A stretch of 42,732 nucleotides of DNA from a virus: the IMG/VR virus record IMGVR_UViG_3300045972_000485, positions 1 through 42,732 of that record; one strand, written 5' to 3'. A program made the position numbers and the translations under genes. This document shows positions 35,893-42,732 of the stretch, piece by piece (the first letter of the stretch is position 1; each line of letters begins with the position of its first letter). The notes beneath the pieces were generated by a model that saw only the letters and a program-made list of their open reading frames with translations, had not been told where the DNA came from and ran no database searches.

Positions 35893-36205
35893 TGGGAACC
35901 CCTCGGTATTTACTTTTAATTTCTAATAAATGAGATTCATAATCTAATCCAGCTTCAGTCATAAATTCGCCTAAGTCGTGCAAAAAGACTTCATCATCGG
36001 GTCTTATATATTCACTAATAGCTGACGTTGCTGCACTGAAAGCTTTTTCGCATTCTGGGTGTTGTTTGGTTGTCACCATCTGATGGTCATATACCCCGTC
36101 GATTCTACTATAATGGAAACCTTTCGGGATTATGATTCCACAACAATCACATGTATGATTCCGATTGGCTTTAGGTGCCGAATGTCTCGACATTGACCAG
36201 CTCAT
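35882..36205 (-). CDS. zinc-finger-like small protein, 107 aa
   Basis: Near residues 17-50: NHTCDCCGIIIPKGFHYSRI, then a His/Cys pair (HPEC), giving a CxxC plus H/C zinc-binding site that recalls phage treble-clef proteins. The C-terminal part is acidic and helical. GGGGGA precedes the ATG, which overlaps the stop of the HD gene. Probably nucleic-acid or protein binding. Confidence 0.65.
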   Translation of the reverse strand: MSWSMSRHSAPKANRNHTCDCCGIIIPKGFHYSRIDGVYDHQMVTTKQHPECEKAFSAATSAISEYIRPDDEVFLHDLGEFMTEAGLDYESHLLEIKSKYRGVPNGK

Positions 36206-36693
36206 TAATCCCCCAATAAATAAGCAAGAGATTCGCTATATTTCTTAAATCTCGCAGCATCTTTTTCTGTGATCGTTACATTATTTCGTATGAAACGCCC
36301 ATAGTCCATATTATCTCGCAAGTCTGCAATTTTTACTTCACGAGCCAATGAACAATACTTAATTCTACGTAAGTAAAACTTATTAAAATTTTCCACAGTT
36401 TGGTATTTCTCCCATCGCCTTTTCGAAGCATGCTTATCAAGACGATATAGAGCAAAGCATTCCTTTTCAGAGAGAAGACCAGTCTTTGCTAATTCCCATA
36501 CAGGCAAATGCCCGTCTTCTGCAAGGTCATGAAGTAGCCCAACGATTTTCGCTGAGATCGTTTCCCCGGCATAGGCAACTCGTTCAAGGTGTCCAATGTA
36601 ATCTTCGCCAACTTTATCCAGCTGCCCTTTGTGTCCTAATGTCGCAATGATGCGGATAGTTTCTAGTCGTTTTTTATTAGTTAAAATTTTCAT
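36205..36693 (-). CDS. HD-domain phosphohydrolase (SpoT/MESH1-like), 162 aa
   Basis: HD-superfamily metal hydrolase. His in LGHKG near 21, the second in YIGHLERVA near 34, the HD pair in GLLHDLAED at 54-55 and a further Asp in KIADLRDNMD near 125 match the H...HD...D pattern. The KRRWEKYQTV-like middle and position resemble small (p)ppGpp hydrolases or nucleotidases. It might counter host stringent response or clean nucleotide pools. No ribosome site of note before the ATG. Part of the leftward operon carrying the ABC genes. Confidence 0.75.
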   Translation of the reverse strand: MKILTNKKRLETIRIIATLGHKGQLDKVGEDYIGHLERVAYAGETISAKIVGLLHDLAEDGHLPVWELAKTGLLSEKECFALYRLDKHASKRRWEKYQTVENFNKFYLRRIKYCSLAREVKIADLRDNMDYGRFIRNNVTITEKDAARFKKYSESLAYLLGD

Positions 36694-36698
36694 TATAT

Positions 36699-37004
36699 CT
36701 ACGCCTTAGTCCACTCACTCACAAATTCTGCTTCCTGCATTTTCGCCAATCTTTTAGTTCCCATATATTTCCCGTCTTGCTGAAATTTTTGTCTGGTTCT
36801 TCTAACAGATTCCATTGTGCAGGTTTCTTTATCTAGTAGAATCGATTTGAATTTTGCATAAGGCTCTTCACCCAGCTCCTTCCTTAGATCACAGTACATG
36901 ACCAAATAAGCCAACCATAAGGTTTTATCGCAGTCTCTTGCTTGTGGGAATTGAGCTAAGATATTTTCAACTTTGTCTTTTGCGTTCTGTAGATCTTTAA
37001 TCAT
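36699..37004 (-). CDS. hypothetical protein, 101 aa
   Basis: Helical (LQNAKDKVENILAQFPQARD), Trp/Tyr-rich middle (KTLWLAYLVMYCDLRKEL) and basic C-terminus (GTKRLAKMQEAEFVSEWTKA). Starts directly after the stop of the ATPase, so co-translated with it; AGGA upstream. Role unknown. Confidence 0.6.
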   Translation of the reverse strand: MIKDLQNAKDKVENILAQFPQARDCDKTLWLAYLVMYCDLRKELGEEPYAKFKSILLDKETCTMESVRRTRQKFQQDGKYMGTKRLAKMQEAEFVSEWTKA

Positions 37005-37844
37005 TTACATATTCCTAAATTCGTCTTTTACTTCACTAACAAAATCAGTGAACCTTGTAGTAGTAATAATCTCTGGGTGCCAGCACAATCCAGCATCAAC
37101 CAAAGAATACTCTTTCATAATCTTTGAGCCTTGGATCTTCTTACCATCTTCCCCAGTTTCACGCCCCATAAGCCATAGATGGTCACTGATAGAAGCTGCA
37201 GCGGTTACATCATGGGTAACAACAATGATCGTATTTAACTCGTGCATATTGGCTATACGGCTCAGTAAAGAACAGGTCTTCTCAAGCATTAATAAATCTA
37301 ATCCAGAGAATGGTTCATCCATTAACAAGAAATGCTCAGAGCATAGGACTTGCTGGATAATCGCCGCTCTTTGGCGTTGGCCACCACTTAATTGAGCCGG
37401 GTATAAATTACGTTTATCCGCCAATTCGAATTCATTCAAGTATTCCAGAACTTTTTCTTTGGCTATGTTAGCATTCTTTTCTTTTTGCATTGCCGATAAT
37501 AGCAAATTAGAAAAAACTGTACGGTGCTCAAATAATGGGTAGCTCTGGGCCACTACGCCAATCTCTCCTGCTTGCACAGGTTTACCTGAGTTATGGACAC
37601 TAACCAACCCACTTGTAGGAGTATTAAGCCCACTAATAATACGACACAACTGACTCTTACCAATTCCTGAAGGGCCTAAGAATCCAACAATTTGTCCAGT
37701 TGTAGAGTTCGGTCGAATAATATCTTTAATAGAGGCATTAACTCCTCTCAAAATACTCTTCCCTTCATACTCTAATGAGACATTGCTAATCTCTAAAAGA
37801 GTTTCGCCGTATGTAAATGAGTCCATATATTTTAAGGTTGGCAT
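37005..37844 (-). CDS. ABC transporter ATP-binding protein (NitT/TauT type), 279 aa
   Basis: Nucleotide-binding subunit that powers an importer. All motifs are present: Walker A GPSGIGKS near 57-64, Q-loop Gln near 100, signature LSGGQRQR near 152, Walker B LLMDEP near 173 with catalytic Glu 177, and H-loop His near 211 (VTHDV). The size and EYEGKSILRGVNASIK opening fit the nitrate/taurine/sulfonate importer family. Start ATG has GGGGATTC upstream and overlaps the previous small gene. Fully intact, so likely active. Confidence 0.9.
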   Translation of the reverse strand: MPTLKYMDSFTYGETLLEISNVSLEYEGKSILRGVNASIKDIIRPNSTTGQIVGFLGPSGIGKSQLCRIISGLNTPTSGLVSVHNSGKPVQAGEIGVVAQSYPLFEHRTVFSNLLLSAMQKEKNANIAKEKVLEYLNEFELADKRNLYPAQLSGGQRQRAAIIQQVLCSEHFLLMDEPFSGLDLLMLEKTCSLLSRIANMHELNTIIVVTHDVTAAASISDHLWLMGRETGEDGKKIQGSKIMKEYSLVDAGLCWHPEIITTTRFTDFVSEVKDEFRNM

Positions 37845-38053
37845 TCAGAATCCCCTTCGGGCTTATCTAGCTTCCAGACACTCCTAAAAGTTTCAGTATC
37901 GAGATCCCCTTGTTCATGTCTTGTTATTTGATTAACAATAGTCAGGAGATTAATTGCATGGTCTGGATTAAACATTCCAGTCAACAGCCTAATCAAGGCA
38001 ATGGCATCAATTTTTTTATCTAAGTACTTTTTAAGTAAATCACTAATTTTCAT
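37832..38053 (-). CDS. small protein inside the transporter operon, 73 aa
   Basis: Helical, MKISDLLKKYLDKKIDAIAL then IRLLTGMFNPDHAINLLTIV. Start overlaps the permease stop by four bases (ATGA); the 3' end overlaps the ATPase start by 13 bases. No membrane helix. Such a tightly coupled small gene may regulate or assemble the transporter, which is inference. Confidence 0.6.
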   Translation of the reverse strand: MKISDLLKKYLDKKIDAIALIRLLTGMFNPDHAINLLTIVNQITRHEQGDLDTETFRSVWKLDKPEGDSECQP

Positions 38054-38835
38054 TTACGCTCCGTAAGTAAATTGCTATATGGGCAAAAGAGGCTCTTCAT
38101 TAATCCAATTGCGTAATCCTGTCCTAATCCCATCAGTAATACCATTAATTGAATGGCCATAACAGAGGACAAGTTAAACTGTTTATTAACATTTAATAAC
38201 ACTGTTCCGACCCCACCTTCTGAGCGACTAATCCCTTCAACAAAAGAAATCATTAACCAGCTCATCGCAGCGTTCTGTCTCATTACATCAAATACTTTAT
38301 CGGCCTGGCCAAGGATAATTACTTCCCAAACCACTTCCCATTCTTTCATGCGTAAAGTCCGGGCCAGATCGAATTGAACTTTAGGGATAGAATTTAATAC
38401 ATCTGCCATTGATGTTACAAAAAATACGGATACTGAAAACACCAATAAAGAGAGTTTCAGTGTATGTGCGGAACTAGACATTAAAGTAAAAAAGAAAGTT
38501 AGCCCTACCATTGATAAAAACCGCAGCTTGCTAACGAATCCAACAATTGGTCGAAAGAAAGGTAGGGTCGTAAGATAAGCCAATATAAGAGACACGATTG
38601 TTGAGTAAGCAATCGCCTGAATGTTTAAATTAAAACTGATGAATAAATCACTACCGATTCCCTTCCCCCATAGATCAGTTAAGGAATGGAATGTCTCGCT
38701 TGGAGTCGGTAAAAAAACAGAAGGTGAGAGGAACCATACCACGCAGAGTAAAGCTATTTGGGCATATACTAACATCATGGCGGTAGATTTATTTAAAGTC
38801 TTATTGAACGTAAAAATATGTATCACAGTATCCAT
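38050..38835 (-). CDS. ABC transporter permease (SsuC/NrtB-like), 261 aa
   Basis: Membrane channel subunit. About six hydrophobic segments (e.g. AMMLVYAQIALLCVVWFLSP, YSTIVSLILAYLTTLPFF, LSMVGLTFFFTLMSSSAH). The EAA-like loop that contacts the ATPase is FDLARTLRMKEWEVVWEVII, then LGQADKVFDVMRQN. Length is normal for the family. GAGGGTGAG before the ATG. It sits three genes downstream of the OmpA-fused binding protein and one before the ATPase. Confidence 0.85.
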   Translation of the reverse strand: MDTVIHIFTFNKTLNKSTAMMLVYAQIALLCVVWFLSPSVFLPTPSETFHSLTDLWGKGIGSDLFISFNLNIQAIAYSTIVSLILAYLTTLPFFRPIVGFVSKLRFLSMVGLTFFFTLMSSSAHTLKLSLLVFSVSVFFVTSMADVLNSIPKVQFDLARTLRMKEWEVVWEVIILGQADKVFDVMRQNAAMSWLMISFVEGISRSEGGVGTVLLNVNKQFNLSSVMAIQLMVLLMGLGQDYAIGLMKSLFCPYSNLLTERK

Positions 38836-38849
38836 CTCACCCTCTTATA

Positions 38850-39062
38850 TTATTCGAAGTTTGCTTCAGCAATTGCTACGCAAACTTTATTAAGATCCCA
38901 GTTATTGCCCCATCGAGTTTCACAGGCATTAAGAAGATTATCAAGGTCAGCAATGCTACACCATACATCATCTTCCTGACCAATAACTTCTTTCACTACA
39001 CAATCTTGCAATGCAGCTATATTTTCATTTAAAACACTTTTTACAACAAATTTTATCGTCAT
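38850..39062 (-). CDS. small protein, 70 aa
   Basis: MTIKFVVKSVLNENIAALQD, then VIGQEDDVWCSIADLDNLLN and ACETRWGNNWDLNKVCVAIA. Soluble and acidic. The ATG at 39062 overlaps the previous stop by one base (TAATG), which settles the start over an upstream frame extension. Function unknown; member of the transporter operon. Confidence 0.6.
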   Translation of the reverse strand: MTIKFVVKSVLNENIAALQDCVVKEVIGQEDDVWCSIADLDNLLNACETRWGNNWDLNKVCVAIAEANFE

Positions 39063-39541
39063 TATAGAACCACCGCATAAACGATCGCTGCTAAAAATAC
39101 GACAATTACTATTCCAACAAACCAATGGGTCTCAGTATTCACTACCCCCGATTGTTGTACAATGATTGGCTGTTGCTGTTCCACAACTACTTGTTGCGGT
39201 TGATCATTTACGTAAACAACTTGTCTTGTAGGAGCAAGGGTATGGCCGAGCAATACTCCACCAACTACAGCACCCGCAACAACTCCACCAGAATATCCTC
39301 GTTGTCTTTCAACGATTGTAGTGTGGTTAATAACCGTTGTTGGAGCAACTGACGGACGAGTAATCGTCGCCGGACTTCCGCTGCTACGGCTTCCACCAAA
39401 ATAAGATCTCGAAGGTGACGACGAGAAGCTTGATCTACTAGAAGACGAAGAAAAACTAGATCTTGATCCACCTGAATATCCCCCACGAGCGAAAATAGTT
39501 GTACTGATCATTAACAAGAAAACTATTAGTAACCCTTTCAT
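39062..39541 (-). CDS. Ser/Gly-rich exported membrane protein, 159 aa
   Basis: Signal peptide MKGLLIVFLLMISTTIFA; then a Ser/Gly/Arg low-complexity region to about 60 (SRSSFSSSSSRSSFSSSPSR), a Val/Gln-rich part (VVYVNDQPQQVVVEQQQPII) with a Gly-rich motif (GGVVAGAVVGGVLLG) that looks like a glycine-zipper, and a C-terminal membrane helix (WFVGIVIVVFLAAIVYAVVL). Likely spans or decorates the envelope, with glycine-zipper oligomerisation possible. AAGGATGAATT before the ATG. Confidence 0.65.
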   Translation of the reverse strand: MKGLLIVFLLMISTTIFARGGYSGGSRSSFSSSSSRSSFSSSPSRSYFGGSRSSGSPATITRPSVAPTTVINHTTIVERQRGYSGGVVAGAVVGGVLLGHTLAPTRQVVYVNDQPQQVVVEQQQPIIVQQSGVVNTETHWFVGIVIVVFLAAIVYAVVL

Positions 39542-39552
39542 AATTCATCCTT

Positions 39553-39575
39553 AAAAAAATGGGGCCGAAGCCCCA
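39553..39575 (-). terminator. rho-independent terminator after the binding-protein gene
   Basis: Minus strand: ATGGGGC, TTCG loop, GCCCCAT, then TTTTTT. It lies within the operon, right after the OmpA-fusion gene and before the Ser/Gly-rich gene. Readthrough must be partial if permease and ATPase share the promoter, giving more binding protein than transporter. Confidence 0.85.
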
Positions 39576-39583
39576 TTGGTTAA

Positions 39584-41374
39584 TTATTCACCAAGTAACA
39601 CAATTTGAACTCTTCTGTTCGCTGCACGACCTTTCTCAGTTCCGTTGTCCTCAACTGGATCGCTAGATCCATGGCCTTTAACTTCAAAACGAGAATCAGG
39701 GAAATTTTCTGGTGCTTTAGCTTGTAGGAAAGCTTTAATAGCTGCAGCTCTTGCTTGTGATAAAGCAATGTTCTTAGTTTCATCACCAGTATTATCAGTG
39801 TATCCATTAACTTTAATGAATAATCCAGTAATCGCTAAACTGTCTTTCAGCTCAAGTAATTGTTTAACTCCTGCAGGTGTTAAAGTCGCTTTACCGATAT
39901 CAAAATTAATTGAATAGTTCTTCGCTGAAACCACACTTCCAGTAGCCGATTTAGTATATGATGGTACGTCAGCTGCACTTCCAGCCTCGTTCATAACTGC
40001 TTGGGCTCCTGTGATGAAAGACTTGTCTTCTAATTCTTTTACATCAGGGATAGGTGTTGCTTTGAAAAGTTCTGGGTATTGTTGTACAGCAATTGTAGAG
40101 AATGTTGTGTACGTTGAACGGAAATTGTCGTTTGAACCCGGAACAAGTCCAAAAAGAATTAGGTTGTCTGCGAGATTGTTTACTGCAGAACCACCTAATT
40201 CAACTTTATTTCCTTCACGATCAGTTTCAACTACGCCTTTAAAATACTTGTACCAGTACTTAGCATCTTGGTCGGCATAAAGTTTTGCTGATAGCTCAGC
40301 GGCTTTCATAAGTGATTTATCAAATGCTTTTACCTGATCCCCACCTTCGAAGATTGCGGCTACCATTTGAGTCACTTCTGGTCTATTTGCTTCAAAAAAC
40401 GCTCTTGATCCAATGACTACTGAAGGCATTTGTGAACGGTATTCTTTCGAAGAGACAACTTTAACTAAGCCTCCACGTTGTTGAACCGCTGTTACATCCC
40501 CCGGTGTCCAAGTAACGATTGCATTAATACAAACTTTCTTGATTTCACTAGTTACTTTCCCGTCCTTTACTACTTTACGGTCATCACATTTTTTAGCTAC
40601 GTAATCAGCCGCTGCAGCATTATAATCCGCAGAAGAGATCCAATTAATTGCGTCTGCATCCCAAGTTTTTTCATCTGGGTTGTTCTTTATCCCGTTATCA
40701 CCGGCCCATTTAAGTGCAATATTCCAGTCACCATCACGTAATACACCGGCAACTAATATTCCTTTAGCATTTTTTGGGTCACGTTTTACGTCAGGTGGTG
40801 CCATGAAAGCATCTTCTCCACGAGAATATCCCGGTGAAGCAATGACGGCTAATTGATATTTATCCCCAAGTTTCTTTAGCTGTGGATTAACTCCTGCAGC
40901 GAATTGACCAGCTCCATCACCCATTATGATAACGAAATTTGCCCCGGTAGAACATTGTTTTGCTCCGCCTGATATTTCTTTTGCGCATGCAATCAATTCT
41001 TCTTGCATTTTAACAGTATCATCTTGACGAGTTAATTGTAGATTTACTCCACGTTTCGCCATTAATGAGCCTTTAGATGTTTTAGCTCCACCATTTGCGA
41101 GGATTAGACCCATTTGGCTATTCCATTCCCAGATAGATCCACGAATCAAGACGCTTTCAACTGAGGCATCTCCTGATGTTGGAAGAGCTACTGGTGTTAC
41201 GTTCTGTACTTGAGCGTCTTTAACGTCTGGTAATACAGCTTTTGTTGGTACTAGAGCTGACATGAATCCAGTTTGTGGGATTAACCCGAAACGGTTAGCG
41301 ACTTGTACGCCACCGTAAAATGTTGCCGCAACGATCACGGCTAAAACGATTTTTGCTTTTGGTTTTAAATGCAT
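39584..41374 (-). CDS. membrane-anchored substrate-binding protein fused to OmpA domain, 596 aa
   Basis: Three parts. Residues 8-27 are one membrane helix (KIVLAVIVAATFYGGVQVAN), with no lipobox. Residues about 70-430 form a periplasmic binding-protein-like domain of the nitrate/taurine/phosphonate type (e.g. FVIIMGDGAGQFAAGVNPQL, VVIGSRAFFEANRPEVTQMV). The last 110 residues are an OmpA-type peptidoglycan-binding domain (FDIGKATLTPAGVKQLLELK, LSQARAAAIKAFLQ, NRRVQIVLL). Together it would bridge the inner membrane and cell wall. AGGAGG precedes the ATG. RefSeq has bacterial proteins of this type (binding protein/OmpA family), from memory. Confidence 0.85.
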   Translation of the reverse strand: MHLKPKAKIVLAVIVAATFYGGVQVANRFGLIPQTGFMSALVPTKAVLPDVKDAQVQNVTPVALPTSGDASVESVLIRGSIWEWNSQMGLILANGGAKTSKGSLMAKRGVNLQLTRQDDTVKMQEELIACAKEISGGAKQCSTGANFVIIMGDGAGQFAAGVNPQLKKLGDKYQLAVIASPGYSRGEDAFMAPPDVKRDPKNAKGILVAGVLRDGDWNIALKWAGDNGIKNNPDEKTWDADAINWISSADYNAAAADYVAKKCDDRKVVKDGKVTSEIKKVCINAIVTWTPGDVTAVQQRGGLVKVVSSKEYRSQMPSVVIGSRAFFEANRPEVTQMVAAIFEGGDQVKAFDKSLMKAAELSAKLYADQDAKYWYKYFKGVVETDREGNKVELGGSAVNNLADNLILFGLVPGSNDNFRSTYTTFSTIAVQQYPELFKATPIPDVKELEDKSFITGAQAVMNEAGSAADVPSYTKSATGSVVSAKNYSINFDIGKATLTPAGVKQLLELKDSLAITGLFIKVNGYTDNTGDETKNIALSQARAAAIKAFLQAKAPENFPDSRFEVKGHGSSDPVEDNGTEKGRAANRRVQIVLLGE

Positions 41375-41382
41375 AATGCCTC

Positions 41383-42393
41383 CTATAAGTATTTGCTTGA
41401 ACCAGTTGTCGTAGTTGTATTAATAAAAGAGTTACTTGAAAGATTTGCTGTTTCTTTTGGTGAAGTAATGAACATTTGATCACCTTTTGCAGACCATTCG
41501 TCAATCATGAGCATGCCTTTTTGATCGAACATTTCTTTATCCAAATCCATTCCAGTTAAAAAACCACCAGAATTTTGCATAAATCGCTCAATTTCCCCAA
41601 TCTGATTACCCATTCTATCAGCCATTAATTCCATAGAAAGATCAAATCTTTCTTTTTCGCCCGGATTCCCATCTAAAATTTTCATGGCCGATTTAAACGC
41701 ATTATACCCAGCTTGCATTCCTTCGCTCTCTTCCTTTCTAATCTTCACTTCATCAGTCATATCAGCTAGAACGAACTTGGCTTGCGAATACATTTTCTCT
41801 AAAATCTTTCTTAGATTAACGATCTTGCCTAAGACTTCTTCCAATCTATGGTTTGATTCTTGAAGACGACCGGCCTTGTTTGCTCCAAGTACAGCGGCAC
41901 TTTGATATTCTCTGTATTCTTGTGTTTCTGGCGAGAGCCCTGCTAAATGAGCTTTAGCTTGAGTAGCTTTACTTAAACTTTTTGTGATTTCATTACGATT
42001 ATCCGTAATTTTTTTATTAAGCTTAGACTCTTGACCGGCCAACAAGTTAAGTTGATCGCTCATCTTTCCTAAACTTTCTTGTAGTGTTTCTAAATAACCT
42101 TCAATGATCGCAATTGGGTCTAGTTCAATTACGAATCCAGTCATTTTCTTCATTGATATTTGGTAAATAGCCTTAACATTCAATTGGAATTTTTTATCCA
42201 TCAACACAACTCCAACAATACCTAACCCAATGGCCAGCATTGCAGTTTGAGTCGCTGTAACCAGCATACCTAGGATGAATGGTAGAGCTAAGAAGGCTGC
42301 GTAGCCGCCTAGACCAATGAAAAGTGCTAAAAAGATCAATCCAGTCTTCCCTTCTGGTCGATCCCAAAAGCCTTTTGTTGTAACATTCTCCAT
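41383..42393 (-). CDS. membrane coiled-coil protein, PspA/IM30-like, 336 aa
   Basis: Two hydrophobic segments near residues 15-60 (FLALFIGLGGYAAFLALPFI, AMLAIGLGIVGVVLM) followed by long coiled coil from about 85 to 230 (AIIEGYLETLQESLGKMSDQ, then LNLLAGQESKLNKKITDNRN), the layout of PspA/Vipp-like membrane-stress proteins, here with its own anchor. The C-terminal tail is Ser/Thr-rich. AGGAG lies before the ATG. Immediately upstream of the OmpA-fusion gene, so co-transcribed. Possible role in stabilising or remodelling the inner membrane. Confidence 0.7.
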   Translation of the reverse strand: MENVTTKGFWDRPEGKTGLIFLALFIGLGGYAAFLALPFILGMLVTATQTAMLAIGLGIVGVVLMDKKFQLNVKAIYQISMKKMTGFVIELDPIAIIEGYLETLQESLGKMSDQLNLLAGQESKLNKKITDNRNEITKSLSKATQAKAHLAGLSPETQEYREYQSAAVLGANKAGRLQESNHRLEEVLGKIVNLRKILEKMYSQAKFVLADMTDEVKIRKEESEGMQAGYNAFKSAMKILDGNPGEKERFDLSMELMADRMGNQIGEIERFMQNSGGFLTGMDLDKEMFDQKGMLMIDEWSAKGDQMFITSPKETANLSSNSFINTTTTTGSSKYL

Positions 42394-42394
42394 C

Positions 42395-42732
42395 TTAAAC
42401 TCCTAAGTAGATTTTTATGTCATTAATGTCGGTATTAATTTCTTGTACAATTGAATCCAGTGATCCGGTAAATTCAATACGTGAAACTTCTAGTTTTGTT
42501 TTCTGTGCTTCGGTTTCAACTTCCAAAGTGCTCTTATCTTTTTGCAATGCAGAAATCTCATCACTCAAAGCTTTGATCTGATTCTGCTTCTGTTCCAATG
42601 CTGCCGCAATCGCCGCTGTCTTAGTTTGGAACTGAGCCTGAAGATTAGTTAGATTGAGATTCACTTCATTCTGGAAATTGTTTGCTTCATTATTTAAGAA
42701 TTTAATAGCATTTTCTGCACCATCTAAGATGC
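42395..42732 (-). CDS. coiled-coil protein, 5' end beyond the window (partial)
   Basis: The frame is open to the right edge with no ATG in it; GTG at 42664 lacks a ribosome site, so the gene most likely starts outside. The visible 112 residues form coiled coil (KQNQIKALSDEISALQKDKS). It ends two bases before the start of the PspA-like gene, so it belongs to the same leftward operon. Confidence 0.65.
   Translation of the reverse strand, partial: ILDGAENAIKFLNNEANNFQNEVNLNLTNLQAQFQTKTAAIAAALEQKQNQIKALSDEISALQKDKSTLEVETEAQKTKLEVSRIEFTGSLDSIVQEINTDINDIKIYLGV

Follow-up and report, generated by a model that had tools for sequence, protein, structure and literature searches.

Why should a virus carry a complete solute importer next to a relative of the membrane protein PspA? 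The question is raised by positions 37,005 to 42,732 of a stretch of viral DNA (IMG/VR record IMGVR_UViG_3300045972_000485; hereafter the window, which at 42,732 bp is the complete record, and records of this kind may be fragments). In this region, five genes read leftward encode a coiled-coil protein, a PspA-like membrane protein that we call TM-PspA (TM, transmembrane), a periplasmic binding protein fused to an OmpA domain, a permease and an ATP-binding cassette (ABC) ATPase. An earlier note, made from the sequence of the window, had pointed to a phage-borne importer module at this place. We propose that these five core genes form one envelope unit, in which a wall-anchored importer and a scaffold similar to PspA and ESCRT-III would keep the inner membrane of the infected cell working, a reading to which we give about an even chance of being right.

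The five genes are found together in many other viruses. With tblastn, a 462-kb uncultured phage was found to have the binding protein and the permease near each other, and the PspA-like protein was detected in the Lak megaphages and in a 735-kb phage; all of these share one gene order, from coiled coil through TM-PspA, binding protein-OmpA and permease to ATPase. A viral profile search with the binding protein confirmed 108 stretches, the best 80 of which were kept, and further loci were reached through the ATPase. With the binding protein as bait, on which all co-occurrence counts are conditional, the exact five-gene order was found in 81 of 103 non-redundant viral loci; six more lacked only a detectable coiled coil, whereas most other exceptions are cuts at contig ends. 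The genes are tightly spaced (median intergenic gaps of 10, 63, 111 and 5 bp), and in most viral loci the PspA-like gene is immediately preceded by a coiled-coil homologue. Many of the viral contigs with the module are longer than 200 kb, up to 578 kb, and a match to the terminase large subunit was seen in 21 of the 30 contigs tested, the viral status of the remainder resting on the IMG/VR classification. Such a conserved order indicates that the core genes are not unrelated neighbours without co-occurrence elsewhere, the outcome that the earlier note had named as fatal to its idea. Its suggestion of looking for the same set and synteny in other large phages has thus been borne out in the Lak megaphages, the 735-kb phage and contigs of more than 400 kb, and its remark that a full importer set is rare in phages does not hold for huge phages. 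The module occurs in about 100 viral contigs.

By motifs, profile and fold, the ATPase, the permease and the binding protein classify as a predicted type I ABC importer of the NrtB/TauC/SsuC group. As the earlier note had read, every motif for ATP use is present in the window ATPase, including Walker A (GPSGIGKS), the signature (LSGGQRQR), Walker B and the Q-, D- and H-loops; among 143 ATPase relatives, the nucleotide-binding motifs are present in 129 to 143, with Walker A, signature and H-loop in 129 to 140. The window permease stays just under the Pfam cut-off for BPD_transp_1 (5.9e-5), and the profile of its family finds NrtB (8w9m, 5.6e-10) and CmpB (9u9z, 6.5e-10) in the PDB as the nearest solved relatives. 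For the binding protein, an AlphaFold model built with 85 relatives (predicted local distance difference test score, pLDDT, of 92.8) consists of an N-terminal helix (residues 5-28), a flexible linker, the binding domain and the OmpA domain. For the modelled binding domain, Foldseek retrieved NrtA (2g29, E 5.2e-11) as well as CmpA, TauA and SsuA, with the entry 6ssy at E 3e-8. Nine residues of this domain (W84, D118, D153, S184, D188, D216, W289, P291 and D293) are invariant or nearly so in the 85 members and sit at strand ends, where the cleft of the NrtA/TauA fold is expected; because these presumed cleft residues are so well kept, the domain probably binds a ligand, and the conserved acidic residues hint at something other than an anion. 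The module is to be compared with the NrtABCD/CmpABCD, TauABC and SsuABC systems, which it resembles in its permease and ATPase profiles and in the fold of the binding domain, but from which it differs in having a helix-anchored, OmpA-fused binding protein with a binding domain that lacks any family-level sequence match.

In this regard, the wall-tethered binding protein described in the earlier note is recovered, with anchors predicted at both of its ends. A lipobox is absent from all 178 relatives, 155 of which keep an N-terminal hydrophobic segment, so that anchoring by an uncleaved N-terminal helix is likely. At the other end, the modelled C-terminal domain matched many OmpA-like domains, including 3td3, 3td4 and 3td5, the last two being complexes with diaminopimelate. 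D527 and R542, which we take to be the diaminopimelate-binding pair of OmpA-like domains, are invariant in the 85 aligned members, and the OmpA motif was seen in 159 of the 178 relatives. Together with the match to PF00691, this assigns the domain to the OmpA-like family and predicts that it binds peptidoglycan. It shares fold, sequence and the diaminopimelate-binding Asp and Arg with the C-terminal domains of OmpA, Pal, YiaD and MotB, except that here the domain is fused to an ABC binding protein, whereas the known ones are joined to a barrel, a lipoprotein or a motor stator. A search of plasmids yielded matches to the OmpA domain only, none spanning 80% of the binding protein.

The second half of the module is the PspA-like membrane protein that the earlier note had also recognised, and whose membership in the PspA fold is supported by profile and model comparisons. 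Hydropathy and the structural model place two strongly hydrophobic segments at residues 19-65, with long helices after them. When the alignment of the TM-PspA family was compared by hhalign with that of classical PspA proteins from bacterial loci, a match of probability 92 was obtained (E 5e-7), and 15 of 88 family members match PF04012 with E values of up to 0.1 (best 2.8e-5). In this line, the nine best Foldseek matches of the modelled protein were all Vipp1 or PspA, at the modest strength of E 3.6e-3 to 2.4e-2. With PspA, IM30 and Vipp1 of the ESCRT-III superfamily it would thus have the helical hairpin core in common, but its sequence scores far below the Pfam threshold and a membrane hairpin replaces amphipathic helix 0. 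The amphipathic N-terminal helix of soluble PspA was not found in the window protein, the hydrophobic segments 19-65 standing in its place, and we therefore file it as a membrane-anchored PspA relative and not as a PspA. Comparison gave no support for the coiled-coil gene as a second PspA.

Similar genes also cluster in bacteria, as the earlier note had stated, and they do so in a compact and in an extended form. Scanning the GTDB species genomes confirmed 260 stretches, the best 80 of which were kept; of the 79 bacterial loci reached with the binding protein, 21 have the exact five-gene order. The compact form is seen in Acidobacteriota (loci L168, L171 and L176) and Bacteroidota, and the flanks of these three acidobacterial loci, read by eye, look chromosomal, with two-component systems, uronate isomerase, aspartate kinase and pilus assembly proteins. 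The extended form comprises a coiled coil, a classical PspA, the binding protein-OmpA, the permease, the ATPase, a TM coiled-coil protein and an AAA+ ATPase, and one of its full examples lies in an acidobacterial metagenome-assembled genome (L190), where the classical PspA matches PF04012 at 3.3e-15. This extended operon has already been described by Ravi et al. in 2024 (PMC11237479), as PspA, TM-Snf7, AAA+, ABC ATPase, permease and PBPB-OmpA, and was interpreted there as linking membrane remodelling with solute transport; its main text does not mention bacteriophages, and in our search of the open-licence literature no description of the phage form turned up. The bacterial TM coiled-coil protein is probably the TM-Snf7 of that literature. 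A relationship between it and TM-PspA was considered and rejected, as the membrane part alone aligned (probability 13). The window module has what marks the operon, namely a PBPB-OmpA, an ABC ATPase and a permease beside a PspA/Snf7 protein. Both sets contain the binding protein-OmpA, the permease, the ATPase, a PspA-superfamily protein and a coiled-coil gene, whereas the phage module is compact, has one TM-PspA in place of the classical PspA and usually lacks an adjacent AAA+ gene. A CDC48-like AAA+ gene, weakly similar to that of the bacterial operon, does lie within about 9 kb of the module in some ten viral loci, and in two of them directly behind the ABC ATPase (L116, 6421-7857; L126, 8775-10457).

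How could these parts work together? The core genes would be inherited as one envelope unit, used by large phages and by some bacteria. In the inner membrane, the ATPase and the permease would make up a type I transporter, presumably working in the direction of import, whose binding protein would be fixed in the membrane through the N-terminal helix and tied to the wall through the OmpA domain; we propose that, being anchored twice, it could deliver a small solute at a fixed spacing between membrane and wall. TM-PspA, inserted through its membrane hairpin, and its coiled-coil partner would then form a cytoplasmic scaffold at the importer, possibly in physical complex with it, stabilising or reshaping the inner membrane. 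For the phage, the benefit would be an infected cell whose inner membrane is kept sealed and energised, and which still takes up one solute, through a long infection. In favour of this proposal are the conserved order and tight spacing of the genes, their co-divergence, the motifs of the ATPase, the cleft residues, the Asp and Arg of the OmpA domain, the PspA fold and the existence of the bacterial operon. Co-divergence reaches a Spearman coefficient of 0.91 for each pair of importer genes, 0.69 between coiled coil and TM-PspA, and 0.48-0.58 for these two against the importer, figures that come without a neutral-gene control and that shared contig ancestry explains in part. This caveat is one of several points that weigh against the proposal. 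The window TM-PspA itself gave no Pfam match better than chance and so misses the gathering score of PF04012, and the support for its fold is weaker than that for the importer, since its Foldseek E value is only about 4e-3 and coiled coils draw chance matches. Searches of the window binding domain against the Pfam and NCBIfam binding-protein models gave no match, and so predicted no ligand. An AAA+ gene was not seen in the window, which ends inside the first gene of the module. Moreover, a 187-kb viral contig (L006, 7267-10001) still has TM-PspA, permease and ATPase but retains only about the first 90 residues of the binding protein, after which other genes follow; a second copy is absent from the contig.

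Other explanations account for part of the same evidence. The set could be an auxiliary nutrient importer by which more of a single scarce solute is taken up, such as a sulfonate, an amine or another small molecule, with the PspA-like pair as chaperone or passenger. The complete set with its conserved ATPase motifs and binding domain is what such an importer would need, its nearest profiles and folds are those of nitrate, bicarbonate, taurine and sulfonate systems, the importer genes are the tightest co-diverging part of the module, and the binding proteins of Bacillus phage G match NMT1/THI5. This explanation seems to us doubtful, however, because the importer is accompanied by the PspA-like and coiled-coil genes in several bacterial phyla and, among viral loci that are not cut, almost always, plain uptake does not need a wall anchor, and a single nutrient fits poorly with phages from unrelated habitats. 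Breadth of this kind suggests instead a general role, and could thus favour a device for sensing or exclusion, in which the fixed binding protein would respond to a damaged wall, to spacing or to the arrival of another phage, and the ATPase and permease would relay this to the PspA-like scaffold, which would then close the membrane or keep out the DNA of a rival. Its double anchoring would suit a sensor, and an action of PspA proteins on damaged membranes is established (PMC11237479). Nevertheless, a PADLOC search for anti-phage defence gave no specific match to any defence protein, with generic ABC, MotB/OmpA and coiled-coil overlaps only, and the module was thus rejected as a known defence system; the same compact module sits on bacterial chromosomes and no regulatory output gene was seen, so that we hold a sensing or exclusion role to be unlikely.

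The earlier note had also asked whether the window might be a chimera, with a junction of bacterial and phage DNA near 37 kb; a misassembly or a recent capture of unrelated genes could have produced it, and the acidobacterial chromosomal copies, with 66-68% binding-protein identity to the window, give the idea some ground. We give it almost no credence, because GC content and skew run smoothly across 37 kb, where the ATPase gene, ending at 37005, abuts a gene that begins at 37004; because the window binding protein groups in its tree, with strong support, with two viral contigs (L018 and L011); and because the module, besides its occurrence in viral contigs with a terminase, coexists in two of them (G002 and G025) with a 32%-identical relative of the 839-residue baseplate-like protein of the window. 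The history of the module nevertheless appears to be one of repeated exchange. In trees sampled by similarity to the window and with the root unknown, the binding protein shows eight phage/bacterial label changes among 110 sequences, five of them forced by strongly supported branches, and four forced changes in a 57-row tree. The approximately unbiased (AU) test, applied to groups chosen after the first tree, rejected one origin of all bacterial copies and also one origin of the compact acidobacterial copies. These last copies fall among phage sequences, which, within the bounds set by the sampling, the root and the post-hoc grouping, makes phage-to-host transfer one possible direction. The window itself is a mosaic, with an importer nearest to acidobacterial-type phages and a TM-PspA nearest to other groups. 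A broader version of our proposal, quite unlikely in our opinion, is that huge phages widely encode an ESCRT-III-like membrane-remodelling device that a transporter fastens physically to the wall of the host, that this device would seal injection wounds or shape a membrane zone which giant-phage replication needs, and that some bacteria, such as certain Acidobacteriota, obtained compact copies from phages.

If the five genes do act as one envelope unit, its occurrence in the same order in Lak megaphages, the 735-kb phage and phages of soil bacteria, together with the four to five forced switches between phages and bacteria, would point to a general and seemingly unrecognised need of large phages, which we propose to be that of keeping the envelope of the infected cell working. 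A PspA/ESCRT-III relative and a wall-anchored transporter would thereby enter phage biology, and the module would make it possible to test a bacterial operon for which gene context is so far the sole evidence. A cultured relative with most or all of the module, Bacillus phage G, makes the proposal testable now. In a single run of this phage (L247, 3845-10930) we find the permease (gp243), the ATPase (gp245) and two binding protein-OmpA fusions (gp249 and gp250), whose binding domains are those matching NMT1/THI5. Between them, gp246 matches the coiled-coil family weakly (E 5e-4), and gp247 is a TM coiled-coil protein in the position of PspA; they are likely the counterparts of the coiled-coil and TM-PspA genes, and since gp247 gave no significant match to PspA, its assignment follows from position and shape. 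Phage G thus has permease, ATPase and binding protein-OmpA fusion as the module does, but differs in gene order, in the duplicated binding protein and in its Gram-positive host. The phage G record annotates OmpA on gp249/250 and ABC on gp243/245, and a discussion of gp243/245/249/250 as a unit was not found in the open-licence literature. OmpA-type anchors are usually regarded as Gram-negative, and phage G carries OmpA-fused binding proteins despite its host. A related arrangement was noticed in a 595-kb phage (LR756511, L248), where a von Willebrand-like protein, several binding-protein-like genes, a PspA-like coiled coil (judged by eye), a permease and an ATPase lie in one run.

The features of the region are collected in Table 1.

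Table 1. Position and basis of the genes and protein domains at the right end of the window.
Feature	Position	Strand	Basis or remark
Coiled-coil protein, first core gene	42395..42730	-	Open at window end; family profile 97 bits
TM-PspA, 336 residues: membrane hairpin (residues about 19-65), then long helical hairpin of PspA/Vipp1/ESCRT-III type	41383..42393	-	Hydropathy, hhalign, Foldseek
Binding protein-OmpA fusion, 596 residues	39584..41374	-	OmpA Pfam 8.9e-17; AlphaFold fold matches
Predicted N-terminal membrane helix, residues 9-27, without lipobox	41294..41350	-	Hydropathy
Predicted periplasmic binding domain, NrtA/TauA type, residues about 75-470	39965..41152	-	Fold and conservation
OmpA-like, predicted peptidoglycan-binding domain, residues 480-596	39587..39937	-	PF00691, structure matches
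Exported Ser/Gly-rich protein with glycine zipper and C-terminal hydrophobic stretch	39062..39541	-	Local insertion
Small gene, 70 residues from ATG	38850..39062	-	Local
ABC permease, NrtB/TauC/SsuC type	38050..38835	-	EAA loop about FDLARTLRMKEWEVVWEVIIL
Small gene, 73 residues, overlaps both neighbours	37832..38053	-	Local
ABC ATPase	37005..37844	-	Pfam ABC_tran 1.1e-24 and all nucleotide-binding motifs

All the genes named by the earlier note between 37005 and 42732 are indeed intact minus-strand open reading frames, and its grouping of the importer with the PspA-like gene stands. By contrast, the glycine-zipper gene and the two small genes, which it had placed in the same unit, had no relatives in about 200 related loci and therefore fall outside the conserved set. 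To this set we add the coiled-coil gene, whose 5' end is cut by the window edge, so that 111 codons are visible, its relatives having about 190-280 residues.

The rest of the window encodes tail and baseplate-like proteins, homing and HNH endonucleases and one tRNA, and from about 34 kb to its end nearly all genes are transcribed leftward. A nucleotide search of the window against a phage collection gave no match. Most large genes between 1947 and 31453, such as those for proteins of 561, 926, 587 and 768 residues, lack PHROG or Pfam matches, so that the phage lineage appears largely undescribed. The leftward run that includes the ABC ATPase also has, two genes after it, a gene for an HD-domain protein (36205-36693, minus strand) whose closest match among solved structures is a (p)ppApp hydrolase (7smg, E 6.5e-13), and a relative of this protein is also found near the module in a 479-kb contig (L094).

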